Positions 2,651-13,686 of a stretch of 29,303 nt of DNA are shown one piece after another. A program made the translations under genes and the position numbers. The stretch comes from a virus. The stretch's first letter is position 1, and the number at the start of each line of letters is the position of its first letter. The stretch is taken from IMG/VR virus record IMGVR_UViG_3300027734_000243, positions 1-29,303 of that record. The stretch is one strand, 5' to 3'. The notes under the pieces were generated by a model, which made no database searches, was not told the DNA's origin, and saw nothing but the letters and a program-made list of their open reading frames with translations.

Positions 2651-3991
2651 TTAAATCCTTTTAACAGTTGATTTGGGGGTTTCTTTCCACATTTCGTTCA
2701 AAGTTACATCCGTTTGCCCGACATGAAGTCCTTTAACTCTTGAATCTTTAAGGATAGGACTGTCCTCATCTTTCCATACAATTGAAAGATAGCGGAACGC
2801 ATCTGAAGAATGACTGGTGAAATCGTGTTTTGGGCGATCCCTAAAACATTTTTTATCATCATCCCATTCCCTTTGATATTGTCGTAAACATTCGATACCT
2901 TCTTCGCATCTATTATCAAACCAACAGCGAGTTAATGCAAGTCGTGTTGCTTGTATTCCGTCTTGTAATGACAGATTTGGAACAATTTTTAGATGTTTTA
3001 TGTCAATTTTTGCAGAAATTTGTTCGATTATGCTCTTACCACCGCTTGCTAGTGTTTTTGCTCTAGCGTCATGTGGCAGGTAATGAAAGCCATATTTGTA
3101 CCCAAACTCATCTTCTTTTTGTGCCAACAATCCCGTGTAATAGGGTATAGCTTGACCGTTAGATGAATGGTGATCTAGCACCCGTATCTCACCGTATACT
3201 ACCTGAAACCACCAAATGCTTGTACTGTCATTGAAACCCAAATCCCAAGCGGTATGGCAGGGAAACATAGGGTCATAATCAACCGTGGTAATACGCTCTA
3301 AGTCCGTGATTCTACGCATCTCTTGACCATAGAACGCCCCAAGGATGGCGGCTTCAAATGAGCATAAAAACTCTTGCTCGTATTGGTTATCAGACATTGT
3401 TGCTTTGGCATCATCTAATTCTGATTGGGGCAAAAGCATGGTTTGGTCTGCCCGTAGCACTTTTACATACCAATTAGGCTTTTTTGTAGCTTCGTTGTAA
3501 ATATCATAAAAAGCGTTGTGGCCTTTAGGAGTACCAATAAAAGTAGCCCAACCGAGGCGGTCTGCAAGTAAGGGACGAATTATTTCACCCCATACGCTAG
3601 GTTTCATATCGGCCATTTCGTCCATTACTACGCCATCCAAAAAATTCCCACGAAGTGCGTCAGGGTTATCAGCCCCAAATAGCCTAATCCTAGCCCCGTT
3701 AATCAATTCAACCCATAGTTCGGATTGGTTGGCTTTAGATAAGACTGGCTCTGAAAAGCGTTCCAAATATCTCCAAGCTACTGACTTGGCTTGGGAATAA
3801 AAAGGGGCAATATAGGCGTATTGGGCGTGTTGTTTGTTTTCTAGTAATGCTTTGACTATTAGATCGTTAATACACGCTACGGTCTTGCCACAACGCCTGT
3901 GTGCCACAATTACTGCCCACCGCTCCTTACGGTCGTGAAAGTCCTCAAAAACGCTTCTAGGGCGGTATTTTAGCTTTATAGGGCTACTCAT
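2651..3991 (-). CDS. terL: Terminase large subunit
   Basis: 446 aa motor that translocates and cuts DNA during packaging. Visible ATPase motifs: Walker A AHRRCGKT (residues 30-37), Walker B VVMDE (121-125) and coupling motif GTPKG (153-157). The C-terminal RNase-H-like nuclease domain shows acidic residues in HTAWDLGFND (Asp250) and VLDHHS (Asp273), plus HSSDAFRYL near the end. Full length for the family. It overlaps the small terminase gene by 8 nt, indicating translational coupling, and is followed by the portal. Confidence 0.96.
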   Translation of the reverse strand: MSSPIKLKYRPRSVFEDFHDRKERWAVIVAHRRCGKTVACINDLIVKALLENKQHAQYAYIAPFYSQAKSVAWRYLERFSEPVLSKANQSELWVELINGARIRLFGADNPDALRGNFLDGVVMDEMADMKPSVWGEIIRPLLADRLGWATFIGTPKGHNAFYDIYNEATKKPNWYVKVLRADQTMLLPQSELDDAKATMSDNQYEQEFLCSFEAAILGAFYGQEMRRITDLERITTVDYDPMFPCHTAWDLGFNDSTSIWWFQVVYGEIRVLDHHSSNGQAIPYYTGLLAQKEDEFGYKYGFHYLPHDARAKTLASGGKSIIEQISAKIDIKHLKIVPNLSLQDGIQATRLALTRCWFDNRCEEGIECLRQYQREWDDDKKCFRDRPKHDFTSHSSDAFRYLSIVWKDEDSPILKDSRVKGLHVGQTDVTLNEMWKETPKSTVKRI

Positions 3992-4314: not shown

Positions 4315-5445
4315 TTATAACTCCGAAAGTACGGCTTTTTTACCCGTAAAATCTTCCCAACGCTTAACAATCACATCGCAGTATTTAGGGTCAAGTTCCA
4401 TTAAATAGGCTTTTTTATCTGATTTTTCGCAACAAATTAAAGTTGTTCCGCTTCCACCAAATAAGTCTAATACTGAACCCTTTTGTGGAACTTTTAAATA
4501 TTCAATAGAAAAATCAATTATATCAACAGGTTTTTGTGTTGGATGAACGCTACCTTTTAAAGCATTTCTATTAACTGTTTTGCTTCTTAAAGGTTTATTT
4601 TCAGTAGTCCAAGCTAATTCACCATCGGACATTGTTAAACCATCTTGACCTTTACTCCAATATAACCACCCTCTAGTTGCAGGAAGTAAATCTGCAAAAT
4701 AATTGCCACCCCAAATTACAGTAGGAACATTTAATGCCACTATGTAATTAAATATACCCTCATCAGGTCTTTCAGAATCCCATCCTCTAAATTCGTGATG
4801 TTTCCTGTTATGTTTAGGGTTATTACTAATACTTTTCTTTTGTCCATCAATTCCTATTCCATAAGGTGGGTCTGTAACAATGCCATTAGGAATATTGCCT
4901 TGCAATAATTTATCTAAGCAATTTACATCACTAGAATCACCGCACATAAGTCTATGATTTCCAAGAATATATATATCGCCTATCTTGGTTTTTGGTTCTT
5001 CAGGTGCATCAGGCACAGCATCTTCATCAGTTAAGCCATCTGTACCCTCAATTACATTTAGCAGGGCGTCTAACTCTTTATCGTCAAAGCCAAGTAATGC
5101 AAGGTCAAAGCCTTCATCTTCTAAGTCTTTCATCTCAATCGATAGCATTGCTGTGTCCCACCCTGCATTCATAGCCAGCTTGTTGTCAGCAATGATATAA
5201 GCCTTTTTTTGGCTTTCAGTCATATCAGAGCAATCAATAGTGGGTACTTGATCTAAACCTAGCTTTTGGGCGGCCAATAATCTACCATGCCCTGCAATAA
5301 TGCCTACCCCGTCTACCAGTATAGGATTGCGAAAGCCAAACTCTTTAATGCTGGCGGCAATCTGCCCTACTTGTTCAGGGCTGTGTGTACGGCTGTTTTT
5401 AGCATAAGGAATCAATTTGTTTACAGCAACTTCTTGAATTTTCAT
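4315..5445 (-). CDS. ParB-domain / amino-methyltransferase fusion
   Basis: 376 aa DNA methyltransferase (N6-adenine or N4-cytosine). Residues 1-90 form a ParB/Srx-like N-terminal domain (KLIPYAKNSRTHSPEQ, then IIAGHGRLLAA at 49-59). The C-terminal two thirds is an AdoMet methyltransferase with catalytic motif IV DPPY (192-195), then HPTQKP (301-306) and AdoMet-binding motif DLFGGSGTT (327-335). Catalytic motif before AdoMet motif is the beta-class order. This fusion is common in phages and may protect the genome from restriction or mark the packaging substrate. It is the first gene of the packaging set and has its own candidate promoter. No partner restriction enzyme was seen. Confidence 0.93.
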   Translation of the reverse strand: MKIQEVAVNKLIPYAKNSRTHSPEQVGQIAASIKEFGFRNPILVDGVGIIAGHGRLLAAQKLGLDQVPTIDCSDMTESQKKAYIIADNKLAMNAGWDTAMLSIEMKDLEDEGFDLALLGFDDKELDALLNVIEGTDGLTDEDAVPDAPEEPKTKIGDIYILGNHRLMCGDSSDVNCLDKLLQGNIPNGIVTDPPYGIGIDGQKKSISNNPKHNRKHHEFRGWDSERPDEGIFNYIVALNVPTVIWGGNYFADLLPATRGWLYWSKGQDGLTMSDGELAWTTENKPLRSKTVNRNALKGSVHPTQKPVDIIDFSIEYLKVPQKGSVLDLFGGSGTTLICCEKSDKKAYLMELDPKYCDVIVKRWEDFTGKKAVLSEL

Positions 5446-11025: not shown

Positions 11026-11047
11026 AGTATATGTTAAGTAGGCTTAA
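11026..11047 (-). promoter_or_regulatory. Early leftward promoter with operator copy
   Basis: TTAAGTAGGCTTAA (11034-11047 on plus; arms TTAAG/CTTAA) is followed on the minus strand by CA and then TATACT, a five-of-six match to a sigma-70 -10 element. No convincing -35 is found at 16-18 nt; the operator occupies the spacer. Repressor binding would be expected to block this promoter. Confidence 0.5.
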
Positions 11048-11117
11048 TCTTATCTATTATTTTATAGGTGTTTTCCCTATGTGTTGTATTTTTGCCCATA
11101 GGTTGCCCAAAGGTGAT

Positions 11118-11275
11118 AAGCCTTCATCCATTCAAGAAGTTGTACTTGAACTAATGCTCCCAAAGGTAGTGTTCATTCGATTACAAGGTTGTCTGTCACC
11201 ATTGTCCTTGTATCTTGTGTAGTCGCCACTCAACGCTACGGGGCTTGCTGTCAGGTGTAAACCAGCCCATGTTCT
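11118..11275 (+). pseudogene. Possible decayed queE-like (radical SAM) fragment
   Basis: In scattered plus-strand frames the region reads SSIQ (11124-11135), VVFIRLQGC (11166-11192), a Cys-rich CHHCPCILC (11194-11220) and LLSG followed by a near GGEP-AH (about 11245-11270). 7-carboxy-7-deazaguanine synthase (QueE) has SIQGEG...P-VFIRLQGC, a radical-SAM Cys cluster and TGGEP in this order. Several indels and a large internal deletion are needed to connect them. This is a suggestive relic, not a gene, and could be coincidence. Confidence 0.25.
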
Positions 11276-11334
11276 ATTCCACGCCACCCATTTAAGTGCT
11301 TTATATCGTTTGGAGTACGAATGGGATTGACAAT

Positions 11335-11426
11335 AAAAAAGGGCTTTATAGGTAGCTTTAGCTTGAACGGCTTGGGAAAATTACCTCACGAAACTTTCCT
11401 AAACCCTAAAACCACCTATAAAACCC
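11335..11426 (-). ncRNA. Long RNA hairpin followed by U-tract (terminator or small RNA)
   Basis: Arms at 11406-11426 and 11341-11361 form an uninterrupted 21-bp helix in a minus-strand transcript, with three G-U wobbles. In a plus transcript these three would be A-C mismatches, so the structure is specific to the minus strand. The 44-nt loop can form a smaller GGAAA/UUUCC stem. GCCC followed by six U (11340-11335) comes directly after. It lies downstream of the repressor gene and could be its terminator or the 3' end of a regulatory RNA. The rest of 11048-11334 holds no convincing gene. Confidence 0.5.
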
Positions 11427-11468
11427 TATCCTATCGAGTGTTCAAGTCCTCAATATTTTAAGTATACA

Positions 11469-11699
11469 TCAATCTAATTCAGGCCATATCAACTTGTAAT
11501 TTTTTGGAAACAGGTTTTTACGGGTTACTAAACCATGCGATTCTTTCTCTAATGTCGCGGCAAGGATTACTAACTTATCGTAAGGTATGTCCCCGTTTTG
11601 CCACATAGATACGGCTGGAACGGATACATTGACCAACTTAGATACCCGTGTACAACCGCCTAAAAGACGGATCATTGCTGTTGATGTAATTTTATCCAT
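11469..11699 (-). CDS. YdaS/Cro-like repressor (probable leaderless mRNA)
   Basis: 76 aa. LGGCTRVSKLVNVSVPAVSM then WQNGDIP is a helix-turn-helix of the YdaS/Cro type, followed by ILAATLEKES and RKNLFPKNYKLIWPEL, a C-terminal pattern common in these small repressors. The gene diverges from the SSB-exonuclease operon across an operator-rich gap. No ribosome binding site is seen; TAAGAT ends 5 nt before the ATG with TTGCAA 16 nt further up, fitting a leaderless transcript. Likely controls both divergent directions. Confidence 0.85.
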   Translation of the reverse strand: MDKITSTAMIRLLGGCTRVSKLVNVSVPAVSMWQNGDIPYDKLVILAATLEKESHGLVTRKNLFPKNYKLIWPELD

Positions 11700-11809
11700 A
11701 AGCTATCTTAACATTTTTACAACAATTTGCAAATAAAGTATTGCTTTATGTTTTAAGTTGGCTTAATATCTAAGTACGGTATATGCCGTGTTAATTAAGG
11801 AGAACTCGT
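11700..11809. promoter_or_regulatory. Repressor / early operon divergent control region
   Basis: It contains ATTTGCAAAT (11725-11734, perfect palindrome), ATAAAG-N5-CTTTAT (11733-11749), the operator TTAAGTTGGCTTAA (11753-11766) and ACGG-N6-CCGT (11776-11789). Leftward: TTGCAA-16-TAAGAT. Rightward: a promoter probably overlaps the operator, with TATATG (11780-11785) as one possible -10. GGAG precedes the plus-strand ATG at 11810. The density of dyads is typical of a lysis-lysogeny or early switch. Confidence 0.6.
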
Positions 11810-12013
11810 ATGAGTGAGCAAGATCAAGACTTTCACAGCTTCCAAGAACATTTGGAACGCATCTTTAAAGACCTCGAGGATGGGGTATTTATCACAGCAG
11901 ATGAGATAGGTGACCTACGCTATGCGTGTGGCTTGCCATCACCAGTACAAAAAAACCCCGTATTACAAGCAGTCTTTGATGACTTTTCAACTATTTTTAG
12001 GAGCAAACAATGA
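11810..12013 (+). CDS. Small acidic hypothetical protein
   Basis: 67 aa, MSEQDQDFHSFQEHLERIFK followed by DLEDGVFITADEIGDLRYAC. Acidic and helical, no recognised motif. It has an excellent ribosome binding site (TAAGGAG 8 nt before the ATG) and an ATGA overlap with the SSB gene, so it is the first gene of the plus operon under repressor control. May be an SSB or nuclease partner, which is inference. Confidence 0.75.
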   Translation: MSEQDQDFHSFQEHLERIFKDLEDGVFITADEIGDLRYACGLPSPVQKNPVLQAVFDDFSTIFRSKQ

Positions 12014-12624
12014 TTATTAGCGATAACAGTAAAGAATTTAAAATAGCCCCAGCAGGGTTACACATGGCTCGTTTGTATTCGGTCATTGACTTAGGCCACC
12101 AAGCTACAGAATGGGCTGGCGAAACCAAAATCATGCACAAAGTTGTATTGACTTGGGAATTGCATGGTAATGACAATCAAGACCAGCCATTAAAGACAGA
12201 TGACGGTAAACCTTTGATTGTGTCTAAGCGTTATACAGTTAGCCTTGGGGATCAAGCTAGGTTGCGTCAAGACCTAGAAGCATGGTCTAACAAGAAGATG
12301 ACCGCAGAAGATCGCAAGAAGTTTGATTTGCGTAACTTACTAGACAAGTTTTGCATGGTCAACATTACCCACTCAGAAGATGGTAAGTACGCCAACATTA
12401 GCGGTATTAGCCCTGTACCGTCTGCCCTGCGTAACGCCCAGCCTAAAGGAATTAATCCTTGTTTGCATTTTTGGTTAGCTGAGTTTGACCAAGCTGTATA
12501 CGATGCTTTGCCTAAGTATTACAAAGAAAAGATTACCGAATCGTCAGAGTGGCGTGGGCAAAAACAGCGTGAAGCTGATGCCCCTAAGATTGAAGATGAT
12601 GTCCTAAATGATGTACCGTTCTGA
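12010..12624 (+). CDS. ssb: Phage single-stranded DNA-binding protein
   Basis: 204 aa. The body (FKIAPAGLHMARLYSVIDLG, TWELHGN, VSKRYTVSLGDQARLRQDLE, GKYANISGI) fits the OB-fold phage SSB type found beside PD-(D/E)XK exonucleases. The extreme C-terminus DDVLNDVPF is an acidic tail ending in PF, the classic SSB protein-interaction tip. TAGGAG precedes the ATG. It would coat single-stranded DNA during replication or recombination, feeding the exonuclease downstream. Confidence 0.85.
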   Translation: MIISDNSKEFKIAPAGLHMARLYSVIDLGHQATEWAGETKIMHKVVLTWELHGNDNQDQPLKTDDGKPLIVSKRYTVSLGDQARLRQDLEAWSNKKMTAEDRKKFDLRNLLDKFCMVNITHSEDGKYANISGISPVPSALRNAQPKGINPCLHFWLAEFDQAVYDALPKYYKEKITESSEWRGQKQREADAPKIEDDVLNDVPF

Positions 12625-13388: not shown

Positions 13389-13686
13389 TTCCTTCACGGG
13401 AACGGGGGAAACGCAAGGAGTACCCCAACTTATTTAAGGTCTGTGCATTTTCAGCCAGTTAAAGGTTTGCAAACCGCCTATTTTTAGGGCGTTAAGCCGC
13501 CATAGTAGGATGCAGTAAGTTAGGGTTTTTGCGGCTTTCCACCTAACAGCTAGTAACTGCTAAATACTGCCCTGTTGTATTTTTGCATCTTAGGGTATAT
13601 CCCTATTAAATAATACTTGTATTGTTAAGTTAGCTTAACTAAACTGGTGTTACTCGATTGGCGAGTGAAATAGAAAAGGATACAAA
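13389..13686 (+). promoter_or_regulatory. Structured intergenic leader with internal promoter and operator
   Basis: 298 bp without a gene. It holds a perfect palindrome GGTTTGCAAACC (13464-13475), hairpin arms CGCC/GGCG (about 13474-13490), a long GTTAGG/CCTAAC stem flanked by GCAGT/ACTGC (about 13510-13562), and TAGGG-N5-CCCTA (13590-13604). Further on is TTGTAT-17-TAAACT (13617-13645) with operator TTAAGTTAGCTTAA (13625-13638) inside the spacer, then hairpin ACTCG-N5-CGAGT (13652-13666) and AAAGGA before the ATG. A repressible internal promoter for the next four genes is likely. Confidence 0.5.

Follow-up and report, generated by a model that had tools for sequence, protein, structure and literature searches.

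The locus and the RNA1 element

The window, that is, the whole stretch of DNA analysed here, is the 29,303-base IMG/VR virus record IMGVR_UViG_3300027734_000243. A long minus-strand helix starts in it 43 nt downstream of a co-oriented gene for a 76-aa Cro/CI-like regulator. The helix had been picked out in a preliminary description as an unbroken 21-bp pairing, and we recovered it as such: positions 11426-11406 pair with 11361-11341 through 18 Watson-Crick and 3 G-U pairs, and three A/C mismatches are expected at the same places in the plus strand. The 44-nt loop (11362-11405) contains internal pairing, and six U follow at 11340-11335. Folding of both strands agreed with the strand specificity proposed then, the minus strand reaching -50.6 kcal/mol where shuffled sequences average -22.8 (z -8.5, with 0 of 200 shuffles as good) and the plus strand being weaker, at -26.5 kcal/mol (z -3.2).

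Judging from the sequence, the reported helix is the core of a larger predicted RNA gene of ~120 nt on the minus strand, which we named RNA1. Several of its features had not been noticed before, namely the hairpin P1, a pseudoknot between the P1 loop and the P2 bulge, a -10 box and a second structured RNA downstream. The parts, all on the minus strand, are as follows.

11469..11699, minus: gene for the 76-aa Cro/CI-like regulator, upstream of RNA1 (phrog_35, E 3e-7)
11461..11466, minus: -10 box TATACT of the putative RNA1 promoter, 2 nt past the repressor stop codon (sequence)
11335..11455, minus: predicted RNA1 transcript, ~120 nt (ends inferred)
11432..11455, minus: P1 hairpin, 7 bp, 11455-11449 with 11438-11432, loop 11448-11439 (fold)
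11440..11446, minus: PK1 5' strand CTTGAAC, in the P1 loop, partner 11368-11362 (covariation)
11341..11426, minus: P2, the reported 21-bp helix, arms 11426-11406 and 11361-11341 (fold, covariation)
11369..11405, minus: P3, the inner hairpin, arms 11405-11395 and 11380-11369 (fold, covariation)
11362..11368, minus: PK1 3' strand GTTCAAG, between P3 and the P2 3' arm (covariation)
11335..11340, minus: U6 tract, with P2 an intrinsic-terminator anatomy (sequence)
11111..11321, minus: second structured RNA, type X1, just downstream (covariation; no Rfam match)

Read 5' to 3', the order is P1, P2 5' arm, P3, PK1 3' strand, P2 3' arm and U tract, and PK1 is a 7-bp pseudoknot between the P1 loop and the stretch that lies immediately inside P2. 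A stable stem with the U tract right behind it makes up the layout of an intrinsic terminator, and this layout is the same in all sequence types of the element, A to E, described below. The 3' end of RNA1 would lie in the U tract, and its +1 would be the first base of P1 or a base or two off. We hold this anatomy with high confidence.

Other sequences of the window deserve mention. TTAAGTNNGCTTAA occurs in three copies (11034-11047, 11753-11766 and 13625-13638) beside putative early promoters; they probably serve the 76-aa regulator as operators. A TAGGG...CCTAT element followed by AAATAA lies in two operator regions, at ~11058-11085 (minus strand) and ~13595-13615 (plus strand), and is also present in relatives; it is perhaps the site of a second regulator. 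On the minus strand, 4315-5445 encodes a ParB-like nuclease fused to a DNA methyltransferase (phrog_498).

Relatives, sequence types and covariation

Relatives were collected through three proteins, the repressor, the product of the right-hand gene (12010-12624) and that of the next leftward gene, from which the best 80 of 358, 256 and 101 relatives, respectively, were taken. The repressor matches comprised 220 sequences with 114 distinct downstream regions. A script extracted 77 elements of four sequence types (A, 26; B, 41; C, 2; D, 8), to which locus L074 adds a fifth, type E; the window element is of type A. The type A model R1 matched the RNA strand in 67 of 83 sources at E 3e-7 or better, and because its matches include type B elements (E about 1e-7 to 1e-12), types A and B are taken to be homologous. 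Among the other 16 sources, six carry type D (L016, L023, L026, L046, L059, L071) and L074 carries type E. The nearest repressors from named phages have less than 60% identity; neither R1 nor a further model, R2, found a match in two loci of such phages (L236, L237, also among the 16), and no match to the DNA was found in named phages. Scanning genome contigs returned two MAG contigs only.

In the type A alignment (23 distinct sequences), 94.2% of 1130 cells are paired, against 32-50% with the partners slid, and both sides change at 21 of 50 pairs. P1 is paired in 95.2% of cells and PK1 in 100%, with both-side changes at 5 of the 7 PK1 pairs; P2 also contains a conserved non-pair, columns 46/115, unpaired in 21 of 23 sequences. 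Type B (39 sequences) gave similar figures: 94.6% of 1912 cells paired, against 35-53% slid, both-side changes at 29 of 50 pairs, and PK1 paired in 99.3% of cells. Type B has an extra pseudoknot, PK2, in which the P1-P2 linker pairs with the P3 loop (80.4% of cells by MAFFT columns); it measures 7.6 bp with its own partner and 5.6 bp with swapped partners, the corresponding values for PK1 in the same swap test being 6.9 and 4.3 bp. A shuffle control on type B was unimpressive, as 82 of 500 shuffles reached the observed number of further pair types.

Of 85 distinct A/B elements, 79 have a PK1 of 6 bp or more and six a shorter one (L065, L277, L295, L345, L355, L239). The element of L065 (4241-4384) has mismatched PK1 strands, GTGATGT and ACTTCAC, and is perhaps an assembly chimera or a recombinant. 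A wider set of 76 elements holds 44 distinct PK1 strand pairs and P2 helices of 22-26 positions (median 25, at most 2 mismatches allowed); only the PK1 variety and the P2 length count as evidence there, because a PK1 of at least 6 bp was a condition of detection. The type A and type B alignments were assembled with no selection on PK1 length. As for the alignments themselves, one P2 pair is displaced by a column in R2, the window and L207 are out of register by one column in P3 in the MAFFT alignment, and the 5' end of L036 was trimmed prior to alignment.

The compensatory changes to be looked for in related phages were found: in 62 aligned relatives all RNA1 helices are kept by such changes, beyond chance, as in a structured noncoding RNA. 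We consider RNA1 a real RNA because its fold persists through free change of the sequence. The covariation of PK1 would fit pairing within one molecule or between two, and the near-constant length of P2 together with that covariation suggests a fixed three-dimensional shape.

The P3 motif is present in at least 120 stretches of viral contigs. Among the matches listed, 94 distinct segments fall in new loci; 64 of them lie within 200 nt of a repressor, 16 lie further away, and 14 have no repressor within the locus DNA covered. Neighbours in the new loci include RusA, exonuclease, ParB and helicase genes. In 61 of 71 cases the closest ORFs on both flanks read in the same direction as RNA1; for the downstream ORF the count is 64 of 71. 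We judge RNA1 to be widespread among freshwater phages. A MITE or dispersed repeat was rejected, as the element has no second genome copy and the window's list of repeats does not include it; a minigene (ATG-NNN-stop in the P3 loop) was seen by eye in many type B elements and was absent in others, so it was dropped.

A putative promoter ahead of RNA1

With TATACT at 11466-11461, transcription is expected to start at ~11455, the first base of P1. Upstream of the 96 distinct A/B elements there are 15 unrelated contexts. In 13 of these the script picked a TATAAT-like hexamer with its end 6-7 nt ahead of P1, and the other two (L327, L281) have TATACT at the same spacing when the sequence is inspected. 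The mean best -10 score was 5.27, compared with 3.57 in control windows; for 76 elements of all types, a -10 box scoring at least 4 was present within 22 nt of P1 in 68, and in 13 of 75 controls. No convincing -35 box was found upstream of RNA1, and the consensus promoter scan lists no promoter there. In relatives with an extra gene between the repressor and the RNA1 promoter (L005, L008, L012, L017, L027, L028), the whole promoter-RNA1 unit is displaced downstream of that gene. The inserted genes are presumably glycosyltransferase-like, DUF5672, PAPS-reductase-like and HNH genes.

The earlier interpretation thus stood in part. Its own promoter in 15 unrelated contexts and its strongly covarying helices and pseudoknots make RNA1 a strand-specific RNA that is more than an ordinary terminator, as had been proposed; the further suggestion of an immunity-type or antisense RNA did not stand, for reasons given with the alternatives below.

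The second structured RNA downstream

The block that follows the U tract, here called X, was identified as RF02932 (Betaproteobacteria-1) in 11 of 34 loci scanned (6/17 and 5/17), with 90-104 bits against a cut-off of 49.4, and these matches begin downstream of the U tract. Altogether, 69 distinct blocks after RNA1 formed 14 clusters. By eye, 23 are Betaproteobacteria-1-like, 31 X1-like, eight X2 and six X4, so that 68 of 69 are of a structured-RNA type, one (L320) being outside these; X2 and X4/X6 are further X types, formed by blocks akin to X1 in other phages. The X1 block of the window (11111-11321, minus strand) showed both-side changes at 28 of 47 predicted pairs in 20 sequences, and it gave no Rfam match in the window. 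In the type E locus (L074), what follows RNA1 is, by eye, a coding frame and not X.

We then looked at the Betaproteobacteria-1 core pattern from the other side. Among the matches listed, 142 distinct core sites have 330 nt of upstream sequence; RNA1 precedes 76 of them (0 of 40 in shuffled controls), and in another 28 the place ahead of X is taken by a -10 box, at a distance of 5-9 nt. The script placed 38 in neither class, of which at least L282, L355, L375 and L415 contain RNA1 by eye. Because the two arrangements alternate before X, the promoter would drive either X or RNA1-X. Behind RNA1, 2 of 76 X blocks have a -10 box immediately in front of them, against a background of 54 of 710, so X would be reached there by read-through or by a promoter that is not recognisable. 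In X-only loci such as L397, L398 and L409, the same repressor family appears to lie upstream, from sequence.

By its sequence, locus L372 has in the RNA1 slot an ordinary short intrinsic terminator, which lies between the promoter and the Betaproteobacteria-1 RNA at ~3500-3620 of the contig strand; the core site, at 2603-2620 of the locus, is downstream of it. We regard this arrangement as a minimal version that occurs naturally. Three loci (L423, L439, L455) carry between promoter and X an insert with no clear U tract, possibly a non-terminating relative of RNA1. Two others have differing RNA1-like folds by eye, with kissing P1 and P3 loops in L389 and an 11-bp PK2-like match in L393. The contigs of three core sites (L382, L394, L404) have IMG numbers that resemble those of isolate genomes and may offer a route to cultured hosts.

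Proposed function and alternatives

The order promoter, RNA1, U tract and X is read from the sequence, and no recognisable promoter lies between RNA1 and X. We infer termination, read-through and any action in trans. The proposal that RNA1 is a promoter-proximal terminator or attenuator, released as a short stable RNA while some polymerase passes through to X, has in our judgement an even chance of being correct. On this view, RNA1 is an independently transcribed noncoding RNA with pseudoknots, placed at the +1 of a two-RNA unit. RNA polymerase would start at P1 and RNA1 would fold during its synthesis; P2 would zip up such that most transcripts terminate, giving an abundant short RNA with protected ends. 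The remaining polymerases, by constitutive or regulated read-through, would make X, so that RNA1 would set the level of X, and the short product itself may act too. P2, at 22-26 bp, is probably locked into a single geometry by the pseudoknots, which may also modulate termination or shield the RNA. An attenuator alone is insufficient to account for this architecture, since terminators need neither two pseudoknots nor hypervariable paired loops. Counted against attenuation are also type E, which has no X, and the three inserts that have no clear U tract; X could, besides, carry a promoter of an unrecognised kind.

The main rival to attenuation, which we regard as possible but doubtful, is that RNA1 acts in trans by its shape, as a nuclease-resistant double pseudoknot binding some protein or machine of the host or of the phage (as decoy, inhibitor or anti-defence RNA), with X as the second RNA of the module and the terminator simply ending the RNA1 gene. 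An architecture that is constant over types A to E with an almost free primary sequence (44 PK1 pairs in 76 elements), the many different genes that RNA1 adjoins, and a promoter, 5' hairpin and terminator typical of a stand-alone stable RNA would all be expected of such a molecule. However, the scarcity of X with its own promoter after RNA1 (2/76) ties RNA1 to X, no invariant unpaired bases, usual in protein-binding RNAs, were seen spanning all types, and no binding partner is known. An antisense or immunity RNA of the P4 CI / c4 kind, whose variable loops would pair with the phage's own early transcript and set immunity specificity, would be in keeping with the adjacent Cro/CI-like gene, the hypervariable loops and an 11-nt complement of the window RNA at ~11070-11080, in the block downstream of X. 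We consider it improbable. The variable loops are matched within the same RNA, fully paired and with compensatory change, and the own locus offers them no longer complements than other loci do: in 38 loci of 5.5 kb or more, searched over the first 8 kb of each, the P1 loop gave 7.55 nt (own) against 7.51 (other) and the P3 loop 7.84 against 8.17 (38 elements each), and the linker 8.79 against 8.47 (19 elements). Moreover, RNA1 occurs in the 14 of 94 segments with no repressor in the DNA covered, and no Rfam family of such phage antisense RNAs reached its gathering score in the window and the relatives scanned.

That the element merely terminates the upstream gene, as a large intrinsic terminator that insulates this gene from the next operon, would suit a strong stem and U tract directly after the repressor gene, and L372 has a short plain terminator in the same slot; but a promoter lies between gene end and hairpin in 15 unrelated contexts, the pseudoknots are conserved, and the promoter-RNA1 unit shifts as a whole downstream of inserted genes, all of which make it very unlikely. 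We give marginally less credence still to the idea that a long RNA1-X precursor is cut in two, at an RNase III/E processing element or by a ribozyme-like domain. A long near-perfect duplex beside a promoterless second structured RNA would be in line with it, but no invariant bases resembling a catalytic core are seen across types, no Rfam ribozyme was matched, and the conserved P2 non-pair of type A (columns 46/115) is not needed for an RNase III site.

Novelty and comparison with known systems

No Rfam family was found for RNA1 in the window and the relatives scanned. The local stretch gave two sub-threshold matches only (for example, mir-581 with 20 bits against a cut-off of 100), and in a lax search nine relatives gave nothing at E 0.1 and one 451-base stretch only sub-threshold microRNA matches. 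A search of the open-access literature found no description of RNA1, and RF02932 was likewise named nowhere in it. We therefore place RNA1 among the structured phage RNAs that are coupled to a terminator; its scaffold is a double pseudoknot, and it is apparently undescribed and unnamed. Tentatively, RNA1 may found a new class, defined by a double-pseudoknot scaffold of fixed dimensions (P2 of 22-26 bp, PK1 mostly of 7-8 bp) that is almost free in sequence, forming a two-RNA module with Betaproteobacteria-1-type RNAs and acting by shape on a host or phage machine as well as gating transcription of X. The covariation is unusually clean, and standard hairpin annotation would label this RNA, with both its pseudoknots, a terminator. 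The orphan Betaproteobacteria-1 family gains a promoter and a genomic partner, X1 adds a further structured RNA with no family match that adjoins RNA1, and the natural pairs of promoter-RNA1-X and promoter-X loci make the role of RNA1 directly testable.

Several known systems resemble RNA1 in part. At lambda pR'-tR', a phage promoter gives a short terminated RNA, the lambda 6S RNA, that heads a transcription unit, with read-through that needs the Q protein; unlike RNA1, lambda 6S RNA has no double pseudoknot. Self-cleaving pseudoknotted ribozymes gave no Rfam match, and no invariant core was seen in RNA1 across types. The antitoxin RNAs of ToxIN-type systems share with it functional pseudoknots and a terminator that follows, but they consist of short repeats with a cognate nuclease gene, whereas RNA1 is a single copy with X nearly always next. 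In RNA antitoxins in general the cognate toxin gene lies directly downstream, a place taken behind RNA1 by the structured-RNA block in all but one of the 69 cases judged by eye, and PADLOC found no match among seven neighbouring proteins. Betaproteobacteria-1 (RF02932) is linked to RNA1 in that it follows it directly in the 11 of 34 loci, in a common transcription unit; it differs in being the downstream X, and neither RNA1 nor the X1 of the window matches RF02932. A published parallel in layout is RCd22-AbiF of the phi027 prophage of C. difficile, for which it is reported that most transcripts end at the terminator of the ncRNA and few read through (PMC12373285). The same paper describes a promoter, a short structured ncRNA, a Rho-independent terminator and read-through with no promoter in between (PMC12373285), which is the arrangement proposed here for RNA1 and X. 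The difference is that RCd22, according to that paper, has abiF motifs (RF03085) and neutralises a downstream toxin gene (PMC12373285), whereas RNA1 precedes another RNA; what we would claim by this analogy is a likeness of layout and not membership.
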